Below are positions 41,591-49,867 of a DNA stretch of 64,000 nucleotides, piece after piece. The position numbers and the translations under genes were made by a program. Source of the DNA: Clostridiaceae bacterium HFYG-1003 (GTDB taxonomy: Bacteria; Bacillota; Clostridia; Clostridiales; Clostridiaceae); contig CP102060.1 in assembly GCA_024579835.1 (NCBI GenBank), positions 2,703,558 through 2,767,557 on the forward strand. Direction: 5' to 3'. The stretch's first letter is position 1. Each line of letters starts with the position of its first letter. A model generated the notes under the pieces. That model worked only from the letters and a program-made list of their open reading frames with translations. It was not told where the DNA came from and made no database searches.

Positions 41591-43612
41591 CTATTTTTTC
41601 AGATTCTTAACATCCGATCCATCGAGATTCATGATCCGGTAGGCTCCGGTGGAGTTGTCAAAGAAAAGAATCTGATCGTCCAGGAAGTGTACCCAGGTGA
41701 AATCTCCCGGACCGATGAGCCGTTCGCGTTTGCTTCCGTCCAGCTTTGCCCGGTAGAGCCCGGCTGCCTCCATCCCGTTGTAATAATAGACATGGCCTTT
41801 GTAAACTCCGATTAAAGTCAGGGTATCCTCGCTCAGAATTTTTTCTTTTCCGGTTCCGTCGAGATTCAAGCGATAGATCCCCGCCGGGTCGGATTTGATT
41901 TTTCCCATCCAGTCTTCATCGGGCGCATAGAACATCGAGCCTTCGCCGACGGTCATGTGCTGGACGATTCCCTTCAGCAGCATTTCTTCCTCGCTGCCGT
42001 CGGTCTTCGTCCGATAAATATCCTTAACGCCCCAGTTGTCCTCTCGGGGATGAGACCAGTAGACCCAGTCTCCCTCCAGGGCTAGAAGAATGGCCTGCCC
42101 TTTGTTTAGAACTGTCAATTCAGTGCCGTCGGTCTGGATCTTCCAGATCTGATTTTCTTGATCCCGGTCGGTAAAGTAAATCCACCCGTCCCGCACAATC
42201 ATTCCGGAAACACTGCTGTCATGGATGACTCCATAGGAAGTCCCGTCGATTTTCATGCGGGCAATGCTGCTATAGGCATCACCATCAATAAAGTAGAGCC
42301 AGTCTCCGACCAGATTCAAATATCTCACGCTCTTGGGAGCAAGCACGCTCCGCTGGGAACCATCCCGCTTCATCCTGAACAGACTGCTTTCCGGCGATGT
42401 AACATCAATGCCGTAAATCCAGTCTCCCTGAGAGACGAACATTGATCGATACTTCTGATTGGCGTTCAGGGAACCCAGTCCTTCCACCACCGGAGTTCCA
42501 GGGGGATCTGGTTGAACCATCTTCAGCGCATAGGCTTTTTCCATTAAATTGGAGCCATCCGCCTTGATGCGATACAATCGACCGCTCCGATGAAGCACAT
42601 AAATCCAGGACTCGGTAATCTGAACTCCTTGGACTGGATAAGTCAGCAGTTCTCTGACCTTAGAGCCATCCAAGCTGCTTGTTATAAGGTTTCCGGTTTT
42701 CTGATCAATGAAATACAAAGTATCTCCATCGATGGTGTAATCGATGATGGGTCCCGCAACGATTTTACTGCTCTGGGCTTTATCGTATGGTATGCGGAAC
42801 AGGCTGCCTGCGTCATCCGCATAATACAACCAGCCGCGATCGGCCATCAGATTTCGTCCGGCCGGTCTAACCAGAACTGAATCTTCAGACCCATCCAGCC
42901 TCATCTTATGGATTTCCAGCACTTGTTCCCCCTGATTCATGACGCTCGTCAGATAGAAAATCCATTCCTCATCGATATTGGCCATCCAGGTCGGCGAGTC
43001 ATTTACTTTCGTGAGAGTCTTCCCATCCAAATCCATTCGATAGAGGCGATCTCCATCCTCGGCATTCGTAAAGTAGATCCCGTCATCCAGGATGACGCAG
43101 GTTCCAAGGACATTCACCTGGACCGGGCTGATCTTTGTCAGATTCGTCCCGTCCTGATTCATCCGGAATAGCGATCCGCCCATCTCTACGCCTTCCTCAT
43201 CCATTGCGACATAATAGACCGCCTCACCAACGAGACTGATATGCATGACGTGCACCGCTTCAAAGGATGTCACCTGCGAGCCTGATTTGATCATGCGGCT
43301 CAGCCGATATTCCGGCAATTGGGAGAACCATACCCACTCGTCGTTTTCAGCATACAATCCGCTGTTCGAATAGTTTCGGTTGAGATTTCCCATGTTGTGA
43401 ACTGTCGTTCCAGGAGTAGTGGAAGTGGGGCTCGTCCCTGGCTGGGTGCTCGGAATGGTCGCCGGCTGGGTGCCCGGAACGGTCGCCGGCCGGGTTGATC
43501 CGGAGATTACCGGCTGAGTACCTCCGATCGTTGAAACAGGAGTTCCCTGACAGGCTGTGAGCAGCAGTATGCTTCCCATCATCCCGACCAGGAGGCATTT
43601 CATCCGTTTCAT
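41591..43612 (-). CDS. DUF5050-type beta-propeller lipoprotein (copy 1)
   Basis: This 673-residue exported lipoprotein has the signal MKRMKCLLVGMMGSILLLTA ending in a lipobox LTAC, so the mature protein starts at the Cys and is membrane-anchored. A Thr/Pro-rich linker with repeated GTQPA-like units (about residues 25-70) leads to a propeller. The propeller is built of some 14 repeats of about 40 residues with WIYY...D..LYRM..DGT, the DUF5050/YWTD-like pattern. I chose the third in-frame ATG (43612), 9 bases after GGAG, because it gives a clean signal peptide. The role is unknown; propellers of this kind usually bind ligands or partners. A paralogue lies 5 kb away. Confidence 0.8.
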   Translation of the reverse strand: MKRMKCLLVGMMGSILLLTACQGTPVSTIGGTQPVISGSTRPATVPGTQPATIPSTQPGTSPTSTTPGTTVHNMGNLNRNYSNSGLYAENDEWVWFSQLPEYRLSRMIKSGSQVTSFEAVHVMHISLVGEAVYYVAMDEEGVEMGGSLFRMNQDGTNLTKISPVQVNVLGTCVILDDGIYFTNAEDGDRLYRMDLDGKTLTKVNDSPTWMANIDEEWIFYLTSVMNQGEQVLEIHKMRLDGSEDSVLVRPAGRNLMADRGWLYYADDAGSLFRIPYDKAQSSKIVAGPIIDYTIDGDTLYFIDQKTGNLITSSLDGSKVRELLTYPVQGVQITESWIYVLHRSGRLYRIKADGSNLMEKAYALKMVQPDPPGTPVVEGLGSLNANQKYRSMFVSQGDWIYGIDVTSPESSLFRMKRDGSQRSVLAPKSVRYLNLVGDWLYFIDGDAYSSIARMKIDGTSYGVIHDSSVSGMIVRDGWIYFTDRDQENQIWKIQTDGTELTVLNKGQAILLALEGDWVYWSHPREDNWGVKDIYRTKTDGSEEEMLLKGIVQHMTVGEGSMFYAPDEDWMGKIKSDPAGIYRLNLDGTGKEKILSEDTLTLIGVYKGHVYYYNGMEAAGLYRAKLDGSKRERLIGPGDFTWVHFLDDQILFFDNSTGAYRIMNLDGSDVKNLKK

Positions 43613-43996
43613 GATCTTCATCTCCTCATTTGATATGGACATAACCAAGCGTTTACAAACATTAAGTGCAAACCACAAGATGCATATGTTTTCGTATGGT
43701 GTATTTTTTCACCTTAAGCTTACACCTTGCGAAAAGTACTTTCCACCATGATCCTACTCATTCAGGCATTGCCATGTCCTATTTTCACCTATGCTCCCAC
43801 GGAAGCATGGATCAGATAACAGTGTTCATCCCTGTGAAATCTGCAGGAATTCTCTCCTCTGACGGTCCACAGAAGTCTGATTGAATCTGATTCCAGGCAG
43901 ATTTCCCTCCGGCGAACTCCCTTTTATTTCCTTCTTGGGACGAGATGTGAACCAGCGCCAGCTGATCCTCGGTGATCTGATTCAGACCGGGTTATC
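43613..43996. other. intergenic region upstream of lipoprotein copy 1
   Basis: About 380 bases between two minus-strand genes. No gene, hairpin or clear promoter could be supported; the promoter of the lipoprotein gene should lie here. Confidence 0.3.
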
Positions 43997-44815: not shown

Positions 44816-45222
44816 GACTCGTTCCTCCTTTTTAAGTTCAGCTTTTGCATATTCCAGGTAGTATACTAATTACCTTGATAACACCGGAATAGGTTTCCTG
44901 TGCTGATCGAAACAGTCGCCGGAGATTTTTACTTTACAATCATTTGATCCTAGGTATCCTACAATAGGATTTACTTCCGGTTTCATGAATCCTCTGATTA
45001 TTTCCCAAGCTGACGACAGCCCGCTGAATTCAGTACTACAGTCCGCCTCAACTTGTTTTATCCTTAGAACTTGGTTGAAAGTTGATTTGAATCATAGTTT
45101 ACCGGGCAGAGTTCGACTAGAATAGAATCAGAAGATCGGATATCAGAGACAGGCCTATTCCTTCGGTTCACGCGGAAAAGCCGCTCTGATAAAAATACAG
45201 GTAATAAAGGAAGGAATAAAAA
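44816..45222. other. divergent intergenic region
   Basis: About 400 AT-rich bases between the hydrolase (minus) and the metal-transport group (plus). Promoters for both must lie here. On the minus strand a TATACT near 44868 is a candidate -10 for the hydrolase. No further gene is supported. Confidence 0.3.
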
Positions 45223-45516
45223 ATGATGACATTCGCACAAGCAAAAAAACGGAATCTGGACAAGCTCAAGCTTTTTGTACCGGTGGTCGCCCGGGTTCAC
45301 GGGGAACATCACCCTGAATTCCATGAAGTTCGGAAAGTATACGATGAGATGATCGCAAAAATCAATCAATCTGATTCGGAAGCCCCGGATCTTGAGTCTG
45401 AATTCAGCCGCCTGAGGGAACTCACGGACCGCTATACCGTTCCCGGTGATGTCTGTGAGAGCTATGAAGCGGTCTATGTCATGCTGTCCGAGCTGGATGA
45501 AGCTTATCACGGATAA
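45223..45516 (+). CDS. small His-rich protein resembling part of a RIC/ScdA hemerythrin domain
   Basis: This is a 97-residue protein. LFVPVVARVHGEHHPEFHEV (His26, His29, His30, His34) and LRELTDRYTVPGDVCESYEA resemble two stretches of the hemerythrin-like domain of RIC (ScdA/YtfE) iron-sulfur repair proteins. The His-rich segments that supply the remaining di-iron ligands there are absent. It may therefore bind metal differently or be a regulatory or chaperone fragment. AAGGAAGG stands 7 bases before the ATG. It begins a group with a P1B-ATPase (gap of 96 bases) and an HMA protein. The resemblance is from memory of the family, not a search. Confidence 0.55.
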   Translation: MMTFAQAKKRNLDKLKLFVPVVARVHGEHHPEFHEVRKVYDEMIAKINQSDSEAPDLESEFSRLRELTDRYTVPGDVCESYEAVYVMLSELDEAYHG

Positions 45517-45612
45517 AGCGGGACTCCTCTTCTTTGCATCTGCCGGGAAGAGGAACTTTTTTGAAGTGGAGTCAATGAAGACATCGCCTGGAGAAGGAAA
45601 GGAGTTGCGCTT

Positions 45613-47463
45613 ATGCAGCGGTATATTCTAAAACACAAAAATCAAATCACATGGCTCAGCGGGATTCTGATCGCGATCGGGTTCCTGGCTGAATGGCTCT
45701 TTCATCAGGAAATCGTCCTGGTCTGGGCGCTGATCATCGCATCCCTCATCGGAGTGGCTCCCATTGCAATCCAGGCTTATCAGGCATTGCGAGTCAAGGT
45801 GGTCAGCATCGATGTCCTGGTTACCATCGCTGTGGCCGGTGCCTTTGTCATCCGTAACTTTGAGGAATCTGCCATCGTAACCTTTCTCTTCCTGTTCGGA
45901 GCATACCTGGAGCAGCGGACGCTGAATAAAACCAGATCCGCCATCCGTGAGCTGACGGAAATGGCTCCGGAGAGCGCGCTGAAGCAAATGGAAAACGGCG
46001 AGTTCGAGGAAGTGGATGTGGATGAGGTCGATGTGGGCGATGTTCTCCTGGTCAAAACCGGAGCCAAGGTACCGGTGGACGGAACCGTGCAAAGCGGCGA
46101 AGCCAGCATCAACGAAGCCAGCATCACCGGAGAATCCCTTCCGGTCAGCAAGGAGAAGGGTTCCACCGTTTTTGCGGGAACCATCCTCGACAACGGCACC
46201 CTTCAGATCGTGGCTGACCGGGTGGGTGAAGATACCACCTTTGGCCGGATCATCGAACTGGTGGAAGAAGCCCAGGATTCCAAATCCGAAGCGGAACGGT
46301 TCATCGACCGCTTCTCGAAATACTATACCCCCGCGGTTCTGGTACTGGCGTTCATCGTCTGGCTCGCAACCAGAGATGTCGAGCTGGCCATCACCATTCT
46401 GGTCCTGGGCTGCCCCGGTGCTCTCGTCATTGGAGTCCCGGTATCCAATGTAGCAGGCATCGGCAACGGAGCCCGTCACGGCATTCTGCTCAAAGGCAGT
46501 GAAGTCATCGGTGACTTCAGCCGGGTGCAGACGATGGTCTTTGATAAGACCGGGACCCTCACCGTCGGCAATCCGACGGTGGCTGAAAAAGCCGGGTACG
46601 GTGAACCCGGCGAGTCCCTGGCCTATCTGGCCAGTGTCGAGTACGAATCCGACCACCCCCTGGCCAAGGCTGTCCTTCAGGAGATCGGGCCAATCAAGAC
46701 TTATCCCGTAAGCAATACCGAAGTGTTCAAGGGCGGAGGCATTGTTGCCAGTGTCGACGGACACCGCGTGGCCGTTGGCAATGTCGCCCTGATGGAAAAA
46801 GAAGAAGTTGTTCTGAGCGAGCAGGTCCGGTCGGATATCCGGCGCTTCGAAGGGAATGGAAACTCCCTGGTGCTGACCGCAGTGGACGGCGAACTGAAGA
46901 TCCTTATGGGAATCCGGGACCAGCTCCGGCCCGGAATCCGCGAAGACCTGGCCCGGCTGAAAAAACTGGGTGTGAAGAATCTGATCATGCTCTCCGGCGA
47001 CAACCAGGGCACGGTGGATGCCGTAAGCCGCGATCTGGGACTGACCCGAGCCATCGGCAATCTCCTGCCGGAGGATAAGTCCAAGTATGTCCGCAATCTG
47101 ATTGAAAAGGAACATCAGATTGTCGCCTTTGTCGGCGACGGCGTCAATGACAGCCCCTCCCTGGCTCTCGCCCAGATCGGCATCGCCATGGGCAGCGGTA
47201 CGGATGTGGCCATCGAAACCTCGGATGTGGTATTAATGAACTCCGACTTTGGCCGTCTGCCCCATGCACTGGGACTGACCAAAGCCACCGCCCGGAACAT
47301 GAAGCAGAACATCCTCATCGCGGTAGGCGTCGTCGTGTTGCTGCTGGCCGGCGTGCTGTTCAGTGAATGGGTCAGCATGTCCATCGGCATGCTCGTTCAT
47401 GAGGCCAGCATCCTGGCTGTTATCCTCAACGGCATGCGGCTCATGCGCTATCAGCTGAACTAA
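45613..47463 (+). CDS. P1B-type heavy-metal-transporting ATPase with CPG transmembrane motif
   Basis: This 616-residue metal pump has no N-terminal metal-binding domain. TGES (about residue 172) is the actuator motif, DKTGT with the phosphorylated Asp311 is the P-domain, HPLA (about 350) is the nucleotide-site signature, and GDGVNDSP (about 511) closes the P-domain. The transmembrane metal motif is Cys267-Pro268-Gly269, where copper and zinc pumps have CPC and cobalt/iron pumps SPC. The exported metal is therefore open. It is grouped with a His-rich RIC-like protein and an HMA protein that could supply metal. Confidence 0.88.
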   Translation: MQRYILKHKNQITWLSGILIAIGFLAEWLFHQEIVLVWALIIASLIGVAPIAIQAYQALRVKVVSIDVLVTIAVAGAFVIRNFEESAIVTFLFLFGAYLEQRTLNKTRSAIRELTEMAPESALKQMENGEFEEVDVDEVDVGDVLLVKTGAKVPVDGTVQSGEASINEASITGESLPVSKEKGSTVFAGTILDNGTLQIVADRVGEDTTFGRIIELVEEAQDSKSEAERFIDRFSKYYTPAVLVLAFIVWLATRDVELAITILVLGCPGALVIGVPVSNVAGIGNGARHGILLKGSEVIGDFSRVQTMVFDKTGTLTVGNPTVAEKAGYGEPGESLAYLASVEYESDHPLAKAVLQEIGPIKTYPVSNTEVFKGGGIVASVDGHRVAVGNVALMEKEEVVLSEQVRSDIRRFEGNGNSLVLTAVDGELKILMGIRDQLRPGIREDLARLKKLGVKNLIMLSGDNQGTVDAVSRDLGLTRAIGNLLPEDKSKYVRNLIEKEHQIVAFVGDGVNDSPSLALAQIGIAMGSGTDVAIETSDVVLMNSDFGRLPHALGLTKATARNMKQNILIAVGVVVLLLAGVLFSEWVSMSIGMLVHEASILAVILNGMRLMRYQLN

Positions 47464-47579
47464 TCCGGACTGCTATCAATCTGACCAACTGAACGGACTC
47501 CCGCTTGAATCCAGATCCCGCTTGCATCCCCAGCCCATTTATCATAAAATTACATCAATTCGAAAGAGGAGAGAAAAAA

Positions 47580-47807
47580 ATGAAATCTGCAACCATCCAG
47601 TTAGAAACTCTGACCTGCCCATCCTGTATGCTGAAAATTGAGGGTGCTCTGAAAACCCTGGACGGCATCGACCAGGACGCTACCAGTGTATCCTTCAACA
47701 CCAGCAAGGCGAAGCTCAAGTTTGATGAAACCAAGCTGTCCATCGAAACCATCGAAGCTGCCATCCGCAAAGTCGGCTATGAAATCATTAGCTCTAAAGT
47801 GAAATAA
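47580..47807 (+). CDS. HMA-domain metal-binding protein (CopZ-like)
   Basis: This 75-residue ferredoxin-like metallochaperone has the motif TLTCPSCMLKIEGAL with Cys13 and Cys16, the CxxC site that binds Cu, Zn or similar soft metals. The ATG at 47580 has AGAGGAGA 8 bases upstream; the longer frame starting 25 codons earlier has no ribosome site. It follows the P1B-ATPase by 116 bases and probably delivers metal to it, replacing the N-terminal domain the pump lacks. Confidence 0.88.
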   Translation: MKSATIQLETLTCPSCMLKIEGALKTLDGIDQDATSVSFNTSKAKLKFDETKLSIETIEAAIRKVGYEIISSKVK

Positions 47808-47852: not shown

Positions 47853-47882
47853 AATCACTTTGAATCACTTTGAATCACTTTG
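47853..47882. repeat. 10-base tandem repeat
   Basis: AATCACTTTG occurs three times in direct tandem just before the terminator of the metal-transport group. Confidence 0.85.
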
Positions 47883-47883
47883 A

Positions 47884-47928
47884 AAACAGGATCCCGAGAC
47901 TGGCTTGATCTCAGGATCCTGTTTTTTA
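47884..47928 (+). terminator. terminator of the metal-transport group
   Basis: AAAACAGGATCCCGAGA pairs with TCTCAGGATCCTGTTTT (one mismatch), followed by a T-run. Confidence 0.85.
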
Positions 47929-48136: not shown

Positions 48137-49867
48137 CTAATCATCGTAATTTTTGAACTCCAGCTGCTTCACCGGCACAATGGAGTTGCCGTCCAGTTTT
48201 CCTTCAAACAGCTCATTGTTCCCCCGCCTGATCAGATAATACTCTTTCTTGCCCTCGGGCCGGGTGACGATATAGACATAATAGACTTCCAGTTTCCCGG
48301 TATCATCATTCGGAACGGTGATCGGCACGTCTGCATATACTTCACTTTTGGGGAACAGCTTACTCTGAACCATGTCATTGATTTGCTCGTGGGGAATGAG
48401 GTTGTGGCCTTGCACCGGAGTCATGGCAACGGCAGCCATCGGGTGCTCCGCTCCCCCGTATAGCCCGATCCTCGCCTCTTGTTCACTGTCCCACTCAGGG
48501 ATCAGAAAGATGGCCTGAATGAGACTCTTTTTGCCTGGTTCCAGAATCATGCTGTCCTGGTAGTCTTCTTCCGGCAGCAGATCGCTTACCGGAGACGGCG
48601 GCTGATTGTCAGCCGTTTCAAGGACTGCGAACCGCCCTCCAATCCAGCCGCCATCGGGCAGCATCAGGCGGAGCTGTTCCTTCAGAATCACCGCTTCACT
48701 TGACTGATTGGTCAGTTCAAAGGCAGCACACAGCCACCGGTCGCCCGTGATCCGATCATTGAGGGGATCGCGATTTTCATCCGGCCTGGCCATTACATTG
48801 GACGTAAATGCCGACAGACACTTTGCGGTGAGCTGATCGAAGGGAATCGTTTCATTCAGCCCGTATGTTTCATAGGAGGTTTCCGTATTCTCTGAGGTCG
48901 GCGGCGTCATGAGGTAGTCTTTTCGGTTGGTCCCATCCGTGTTCATGATGGTTTCTTTCATGCTGAAGCTGGCAAAATCCATGGTCAGGTATACCATGAT
49001 GTCCTCGTGGATGTTGAGCATTAATGGTCCTTCGTTATTGACTACGGTTGGCTCCGATCCGTCCAGCTTCATCTTTTTGAACTCAATCCCCATGGTTTCT
49101 GCCTTTGTATTGCCATAGTAGATCCAATCCCCGCTCACGTTCATGGCACTGACTTTATCCTCCGACAATTTGAGGGGACCCGTTCCGTCGAGTTTCATCC
49201 GCCAGATGTTGTTTGCTTCCTGGGTGATGTAATAAATGTGATCTCCTACCACCTGCAGGGAGATGAAGGACGCCTTCCCCAACTCGGTATCCTCGCTGCC
49301 ATCCGGTTTCATCCGGTGAATGGTCTCTCCATCCGAATAGTAGATCCCTTCCTGCGTGATATTGAACTTTCCGGTTTTGGCGGATCCGACCGTCTGGGAC
49401 GAGGTGCCATCCAGCTTCATTTTGTAGATTCTGGAGTACTCTTCGGTTTTTGTCTCGTCCGTCCGGTTAATGGAATAGATCCAGCCATCATACACCATCG
49501 TGTTCTGGGCAGCCTGTTCGCCCAGTTTCTGTTTTTCCGTACCGTCCGGCTTGATCCGGTAGATTTTATTGTCCTCTGCGCTGCAATAGACAATCCAGCC
49601 ATCATAGTAATTAAGGCTGTAGCTTCCCTCCGGCGTGATCATGGCTTCCCCGGTGCGATCCTTTTTTATCTTGTACAGAGCATTCTTGGCTGAGATGTTG
49701 GTAAAGTAGATCCAGTCACCTTCTGTGACGGACAGACCGGCATTGTCGATGTTCTGGTTTGAATTGCCGAATTTGGTCTGCTCCTTCGGTTCCCCACTGC
49801 ATCCGACGATCAGCAGGCTGAAGAGAACCAGAAGAACAGAGCAGGCTCTCATAGGTTTCCGTTTCAT
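48137..49867 (-). CDS. DUF5050-type lipoprotein with extra C-terminal domain (copy 2)
   Basis: This 576-residue exported lipoprotein has a signal peptide ending in the lipobox IVGC (Cys23), so the mature protein is lipid-anchored. Residues about 38-330 are seven or eight DUF5050 repeats (WIYYxN...YKMKLDGT). Residues about 350-576 form a separate domain with beta-strand character, perhaps an immunoglobulin-like fold followed by a small cap; I do not recognise it. GAGGAGAG stands 7 bases before the ATG. It is paralogous to the lipoprotein at 41.6-43.6 kb but shorter and with this added domain. The function is unknown. Confidence 0.8.
   Translation of the reverse strand: MKRKPMRACSVLLVLFSLLIVGCSGEPKEQTKFGNSNQNIDNAGLSVTEGDWIYFTNISAKNALYKIKKDRTGEAMITPEGSYSLNYYDGWIVYCSAEDNKIYRIKPDGTEKQKLGEQAAQNTMVYDGWIYSINRTDETKTEEYSRIYKMKLDGTSSQTVGSAKTGKFNITQEGIYYSDGETIHRMKPDGSEDTELGKASFISLQVVGDHIYYITQEANNIWRMKLDGTGPLKLSEDKVSAMNVSGDWIYYGNTKAETMGIEFKKMKLDGSEPTVVNNEGPLMLNIHEDIMVYLTMDFASFSMKETIMNTDGTNRKDYLMTPPTSENTETSYETYGLNETIPFDQLTAKCLSAFTSNVMARPDENRDPLNDRITGDRWLCAAFELTNQSSEAVILKEQLRLMLPDGGWIGGRFAVLETADNQPPSPVSDLLPEEDYQDSMILEPGKKSLIQAIFLIPEWDSEQEARIGLYGGAEHPMAAVAMTPVQGHNLIPHEQINDMVQSKLFPKSEVYADVPITVPNDDTGKLEVYYVYIVTRPEGKKEYYLIRRGNNELFEGKLDGNSIVPVKQLEFKNYDD

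Follow-up and report, generated by a model that had tools for sequence, protein, structure and literature searches.

The window, the whole stretch of 64,000 nucleotides analysed from Clostridiaceae bacterium HFYG-1003, carries on its plus strand at positions 45223-47807 three genes encoding a RIC-like protein of 97 aa, a P1B-ATPase of 616 aa and a small HMA protein. All three open reading frames, first proposed in a sequence-only reading, were found where they had been placed and on the plus strand (Table 1). For the HMA gene, ATG at 47580 (75 aa, AGGAG upstream) is most likely the start, not TTG at 47505. The next genes on either side of the operon lie on the minus strand and are unrelated, and a single transcription unit is, tentatively, the best explanation for the three genes. 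Flanking the metal operon, the minus strand encodes at 41591-43678 and 48137-49867 a pair of related secreted proteins in which YYxxxDGxxLYR-type motifs recur; the second of the pair matches DUF5050.

Table 1. Features of the metal operon and its upstream region, in window coordinates.
Feature	Position	Strand	Basis
FNR-box-like operator TTGATTTGAATCAT, 9/10 half-site bases of TTGATN4ATCAA, centre 45088.5	45082..45095	+	box count in CPG operons versus controls
-10-like hexamer TAGAAT, first base 29.5 bp past box centre (the spacing of a class II activator site at -41.5)	45118..45123	+	spacing comparison
Second TAGAAT, overlapping the first, at +34.5	45123-45128	+	sequence
RIC-like 97-aa protein lacking all six di-iron ligands; H26, H30 and C78 near-invariant	45223..45516	+	profile, alignment, fold
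CPG-type P1B-ATPase, 616 aa, without its own N-terminal metal-binding domain	45613..47463	+	profile, alignment, tree
CPG motif in TM4 (C267 P268 G269), same in 84/84	46411..46419	+	84-member alignment
H596-E597 in last TM helix; H596 aligned to metal-ligand position of other groups	47398..47403	+	alignments
HMA protein, 75 aa, CPSC (Cys pair 47616-47627)	47580..47807	+	PF00403 match
Intrinsic terminator at operon end	47882..47926	+	hairpin -24 kcal/mol, z -6.0, then T run

The ATPase belongs to the heavy-metal P-type ATPases (542 bits with TIGR01525, whose cut-off is 346) and has the P1B hallmarks: the heavy-metal domain set, DKTGT and an x-P-x motif in TM4. The TM4 segment carries TILVLGCPGALVIGVP and reads GCPGALVIGVP, and the CPG triplet is constant among the 84 aligned relatives down to 40-54% identity, including pumps as distant as those of L. 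lactis (54% identical), the alphaproteobacterium Roseicitreum (41%) and Haloarcula (40%). Across this alignment C267, P268, G269, P276, H596, S599, N606 and R609 are invariant or nearly so, M593, close to H596, is invariant, and E597 is replaced by Q in one pump. HMMER alignments place H596 opposite the TM6 aspartate of ZntA and the histidine of sCoaT; the ZntA lysine was not found in these alignments, its position being hydrophobic. The last TM helix (VHEAS) aligns with VHEGS of sCoaT and contains the HExxS/T typical of P1B-4, and TM6 has VHExS instead of the MxxSS of the Cu group. The pump has no C-terminal domain. An AlphaFold model of the ATPase built from 43 close relatives reached a pLDDT of 63 and was set aside. 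In a Bacillales MAG (L069) the CPG pump lies within an open frame of 2093 aa, perhaps an assembly or fusion artefact.

In a careful tree of 27 rows and 610 columns, the CPG pumps formed a single clade (bootstrap 100, SH-aLRT 97) beside P1B-2 and P1B-4, and all of these were split from the Cu pumps (P1B-1) at 100/100. A quick tree to which the P1B-5 pump Nia and FixI were added gave the same placement, the Nia and FixI rows being long-branched. Tree placement, which the sequence-only reading had recommended as a check, put the ATPase in a clade of its own outside P1B-1, P1B-2 and P1B-4, and the CPG in place of CPC or SPC that had drawn attention to the pump proved to be a genuine clade-wide motif. 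The clade's separateness is relative to the sampled pumps, which cover P1B-1, P1B-2, P1B-4 and P1B-5. P1B-6 and P1B-7 are further subgroups that Smith et al. reportedly defined by sequence in 2014; in PMC4932525 they figure as sequence classes without functional tests.

Motifs separate the pump from each sampled group. It has CPG and VHExS where P1B-1 (Cu) has CPC and MxxSS; it has CPG, H596 at the D position and a hydrophobic residue at the K position of P1B-2 (Zn/Cd/Pb); it has CPG in all 84 pumps in place of the SPC of P1B-4 (Co/Zn/Fe); and it has neither the TPC nor the fused C-terminal hemerythrin domain of P1B-5 (Nia), outside which it fell in the quick tree. The source genome encodes three further P1B pumps, namely a CPC Cu-type pump, a CPH pump and a P1B-2-like pump. 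ZccE was considered as a characterised CPG pump and rejected, since it has SPC (PMC9387928), and the Llmg_0524-0526 zinc operon was rejected as a counterpart because its proteins are unrelated.

The 97-aa protein matches TIGR03652 (FeS_repair_RIC; E 1.4e-12, 47.8 bits, full-length cut-off 204.7) in two stretches, and its residues 12-43 and 61-94 align to 94-125 and 174-207 of ScdA. The di-iron site of RIC proteins has six ligands, four His and two Glu (YtfE ligands in PMC9268430), which in ScdA are H87, H132, E136, H167, H211 and E215 (PMC12412097). These six ScdA positions fall before, between and after the aligned stretches and none is retained; when full-length RICs from the source order are aligned with the protein, it proves to have the ligand segments HHxYL, HLxKEE, DEH and HIHLEN absent or replaced, and the aligned relatives of the 97-aa protein likewise lack all six ligands. 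Its AlphaFold model has four helices (pLDDT 95), the best solved fold matches are ScdA (Z 11.2) and YtfE (Z 9.8), and Foldseek ranks 1-12 are all RIC. Since a Z of about 11 can be reached by helical bundles alone, homology to RIC rests on sequence and fold together. Compared with E. coli YtfE and S. aureus ScdA, the protein shares the RVHGxxHPE and YxxPxDxCxSY stretches and, by prediction, a RIC-type fold but lacks the DfCCgG domain and the entire set of di-iron ligands.

Within the short-RIC alignment H30 and C78 never vary and 52 of 53 sequences have H26; all three are also conserved in the aligned full-length RICs, and the invariant Cys occupies the position of C191 in ScdA. Judging from the order of the predicted helices, H26, H30 and C78 would lie at one end of the bundle. 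The short RICs form a conserved family of free-standing proteins, about 95-105 aa long, so that of the earlier description as a RIC-like fragment the relation to RIC is real and the fragment is not. A role as a di-iron, hemerythrin-type metal handler, also envisaged there, was rejected because the ligands are missing from the protein and its aligned relatives: with a predicted RIC-type fold and none of the six ligands, the protein is not a di-iron protein, and it is not a decayed fragment either.

The third protein is a clear HMA protein (PF00403, E 1.6e-12, 48 bits against a cut-off of 24.8) in which the CxxC that had been read from the sequence takes the form CPSC. It shares the HMA fold and CxxC with the CopZ-type chaperones but has LTCPSC where these have MxCxxC, falls below the cut-offs of the CopZ models and is tied to the CPG pump. 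The usual ligands of CxxC HMA domains are Cu(I), Zn or Cd, not Fe(II).

Linkage between the genes is strong. All nine short RICs found in the source order adjoin a CPG pump, and among 299 genomes sampled without bias from the source phylum, 21 encode a short RIC, 26 a CPG pump and 21 both (hypergeometric 7e-28), with the two genes within about 2.4 kb of each other in 20 of the 21. The co-occurrence check suggested earlier thus indicates that the genes belong together, every short-RIC genome carrying the pump, 20 of them next to it. In one locus (L161, G391:C38) a short RIC has no adjoining pump; some 22 kb off there is a CPG-like match, but a weaker one. A GTDB scan, of which the best 80 of 512 candidate stretches encoding relatives were taken as a top slice, found relatives in Bacillota, Chloroflexota, Mycoplasmatota, Spirochaetota and archaea; among the 47 loci of this slice with at least 2.5 kb on both sides, ric was present in 40, hma in 41 and both in 36. 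A survey of recurrent neighbours at chromosomal loci revealed no conserved fourth gene besides Crp/Fnr. Near-alike crp-ric-pump-hma units occur in Hathewaya, Vagococcus, Fusibacter, Clostridium and S. suis (L040, L056, L057, L058, L062, L063, L064 and L084), several of them adjoining serine recombinase genes, and probably reflect recent horizontal transfer.

Upstream of the operon, the top inverted repeat is TTGAT-N4-ATCAA, an FNR box, found in 21 of 84 loci compared with 3-4 for the best repeat in shuffled sequences. Counted from the operon start and allowing at most one mismatch, the box is present in 42 of 80 CPG operons and in 19 of 391 upstream regions of other genes of the same loci (5%), giving an odds ratio of 21.6 and a p value of 2.5e-23 that is optimistic because several loci are close copies. 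Of 31 distinct promoters, 20 have a -10 hexamer (at least 5/6) exactly 29.5 bp past the box centre, and the window has the same class II arrangement. A CopY box (TACANNTGTA) was found upstream in only 1 of 84 loci, which is about chance. In 27 of 84 loci a Crp/Fnr-family gene occurs no more than 5 kb away, and the proteins encoded next to the module mostly have a PETISRK-like recognition helix and a Cys/His-rich N-terminus. At G000:C1:3223674 the source genome encodes an FNR-like protein in which a fourth Cys stands apart from a C-x2-C-x5-C motif. From these sequence features, an FNR-family regulator probably activates the operon promoter from a class II position.

FNR-like Flp regulators of lactic acid bacteria offer the closest parallel: the module frequently has as its neighbor a Crp/Fnr gene whose product carries a PETISR recognition helix. 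The window has no adjacent regulator gene. A predicted FlpA regulon of lactic acid bacteria has been classed with metal homeostasis (PMC3616900), and the regulatory link may thus already be known in part. In addition, L. lactis FNR-like proteins have been linked to zinc uptake, according to a title cited in PMC6196286. In L087, L091, L094 and other Bacillaceae, the adjoining Crp/Fnr proteins have His/Cys-rich tails (e.g., MEQNQCCHHQHGHAEC) that look metal-binding, and the source genome has a Crp-family gene with an in-frame TAA (G000:C1:220302, L158).

Plasmids provide a different gene neighborhood. Among 464 plasmid records with a pump relative at E < 1e-100, hosted mostly by enterococci, lactococci, leuconostocs and listeriae, a short RIC is encoded in only six, and dps is common in its place. 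On plasmids of Enterococcus, Listeria and L. salivarius, a separate FNR box lies 85-126 bp upstream of each of four genes, namely dps, a Crp/Fnr gene, hma and the pump gene; dps adjoins hma or the pump on plasmids of L. lactis, S. equorum and Tetragenococcus; and on Listeria pPIR00540 fetB directly precedes dps, with no clear box of their own for FetA/FetB. The Dps link was seen on plasmids of Lactobacillales and staphylococci and was not seen at the chromosomal ric-bearing loci. A multicopper oxidase gene lies beside the module in S. equorum, and CopB is encoded near it in Listeria. Tetragenococcus plasmid pTO2 has tandem hma-ric repeats (L130 3627-5549; four hma, two identical ric) by two dps genes. 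The sequence-only reading had recognised the CPG motif, the RIC relation and the HMA protein; the promoter with its FNR box, the Crp/Fnr gene that often accompanies the module and the plasmid Dps and FetAB neighbors go beyond it.

Sequence comparison establishes a conserved gene set, a CPG clade, a predicted RIC-type fold stripped of its ligands, a box with its promoter spacing and a terminator. On this basis we consider, at a probability of roughly 0.45, that the module is an FNR-family-activated efflux system whose substrate is a divalent metal, with Fe(II) as the likeliest candidate. The uncertainty about the metal expressed earlier was justified; Cu(I) and Zn are less probable alternatives. 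Fe(II) is the leading guess because of the dps/fetB context on plasmids, the P1B-4-like His-Glu and the tree. The CPG pump would export a divalent transition metal through in-membrane ligands Cys267 and His596, possibly with Glu597, in a P1B-4-like site with its cysteine relocated to the first residue of the triplet. The pump's detached metal-binding domain or donor would be the CPSC HMA protein. The RIC-like protein would be an adaptor without di-iron in which nothing of the RIC bundle but the conserved His-His-Cys end is kept, and it would assist either the pump or the HMA protein in docking, delivery or redox chemistry.

Efflux of Fe(II) is favored by the tight linkage of ric, pump and hma, by the position of the clade beside the divalent groups, by a TM6 with VHExS as in CoaT and without the ZntA K/D pair or MxxSS, by the FNR box with class II spacing and an FNR-like protein in the genome, by the boxed plasmid genes with FetB by Dps in Listeria, and by the CPC, CPH and P1B-2-like pumps that the genome already has. 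It is weakened by the usual ligands of CxxC HMA domains, the conserved M593 by H596, the multicopper oxidase and CopB neighbors, the FetA/FetB genes without a clear box, the confinement of the Dps link to plasmids, and, in the window, a box with one mismatch and a regulator that is only presumed.

Export of Cu(I) or Ag(I), with the CPSC protein as a copper chaperone, Cys267, Met593 and His596 as Cu(I) ligands and FNR control reflecting the greater toxicity of Cu(I) without oxygen, appears unlikely: the similarity of the HMA protein to CopZ models, the invariant M593 and the copper-related neighbors in S. equorum and Listeria agree with it, but the clade groups with divalent pumps apart from the Cu pumps, TM6 lacks MxxSS, TM4 has only one Cu-type Cys, the genome has its own CPC and CPH pumps, and Dps and FetAB are neighbors. 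Zn(II)/Cd(II) or broad divalent export, with FNR-like proteins in zinc homeostasis, is improbable to the same degree; the sister position to P1B-2/P1B-4, the Zn/Cd affinity of HMA domains and the literature on the L. lactis proteins and FlpA noted above speak for it, and the missing P1B-2 ligand pattern (CPC with K and D), the separate P1B-2-like pump and the iron-directed Dps and FetB against it. Still less probable is a redox-stress operon in which the RIC-like protein senses or responds to NO or oxygen and metal export is secondary, since despite the RIC relation, the FNR box, the Dps linkage and the Cys at the C191 position, no di-iron or heme site is left for NO binding and two of the three genes encode metal-handling proteins. 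Finally, that the 97-aa gene is a decayed ric fragment next to an unrelated pump, as its partial coverage of full-length RIC might suggest, is contradicted by 52 distinct full-length homologues with common invariant positions, linkage across phyla and the confident fold, and can be dismissed.

For the pump, the nearest known systems are in P1B-4 and P1B-5. The P1B-4 pumps (CoaT/sCoaT 7qbz; PfeT, PmtA) share with the CPG pump the HE-x-S/T of the last TM helix, the lack of an N-terminal HMA fusion and the divalent side of the tree, but they have SPC, the CPG pumps form a separate well-supported clade, and neither the partner genes nor the FNR box of the CPG module was seen for P1B-4 here. PfeT and PmtA are Fe(II) efflux pumps. 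The P1B-5 pump Nia of S. meliloti (Ni/Fe) is likewise a P1B pump tied to the hemerythrin superfamily, but its motif is TPC and a domain with histidine/carboxylate residues is fused to its C-terminus, in contrast to CPG and a separate, ligand-less RIC-type protein. Literature searches turned up no paper in which a CPG P1B pump is combined with hemerythrin or FNR.

The broadest claim, that a separate P1B subgroup spread over several phyla and archaea exports Fe(II) under FNR-family control together with a RIC derivative that has lost the di-iron site and keeps only the His-His-Cys bundle end, is doubtful at present. If true, it would give the RIC fold a second function independent of an iron centre. 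The module itself connects P1B pumps with the hemerythrin superfamily for a second time, independently of the case of P1B-5. It is also a natural test of the role of the conserved non-ligand residues of RIC proteins, and a pump clade so far annotated only as 'heavy metal translocating P-type ATPase' gains a conserved set of partners and a likely control circuit.
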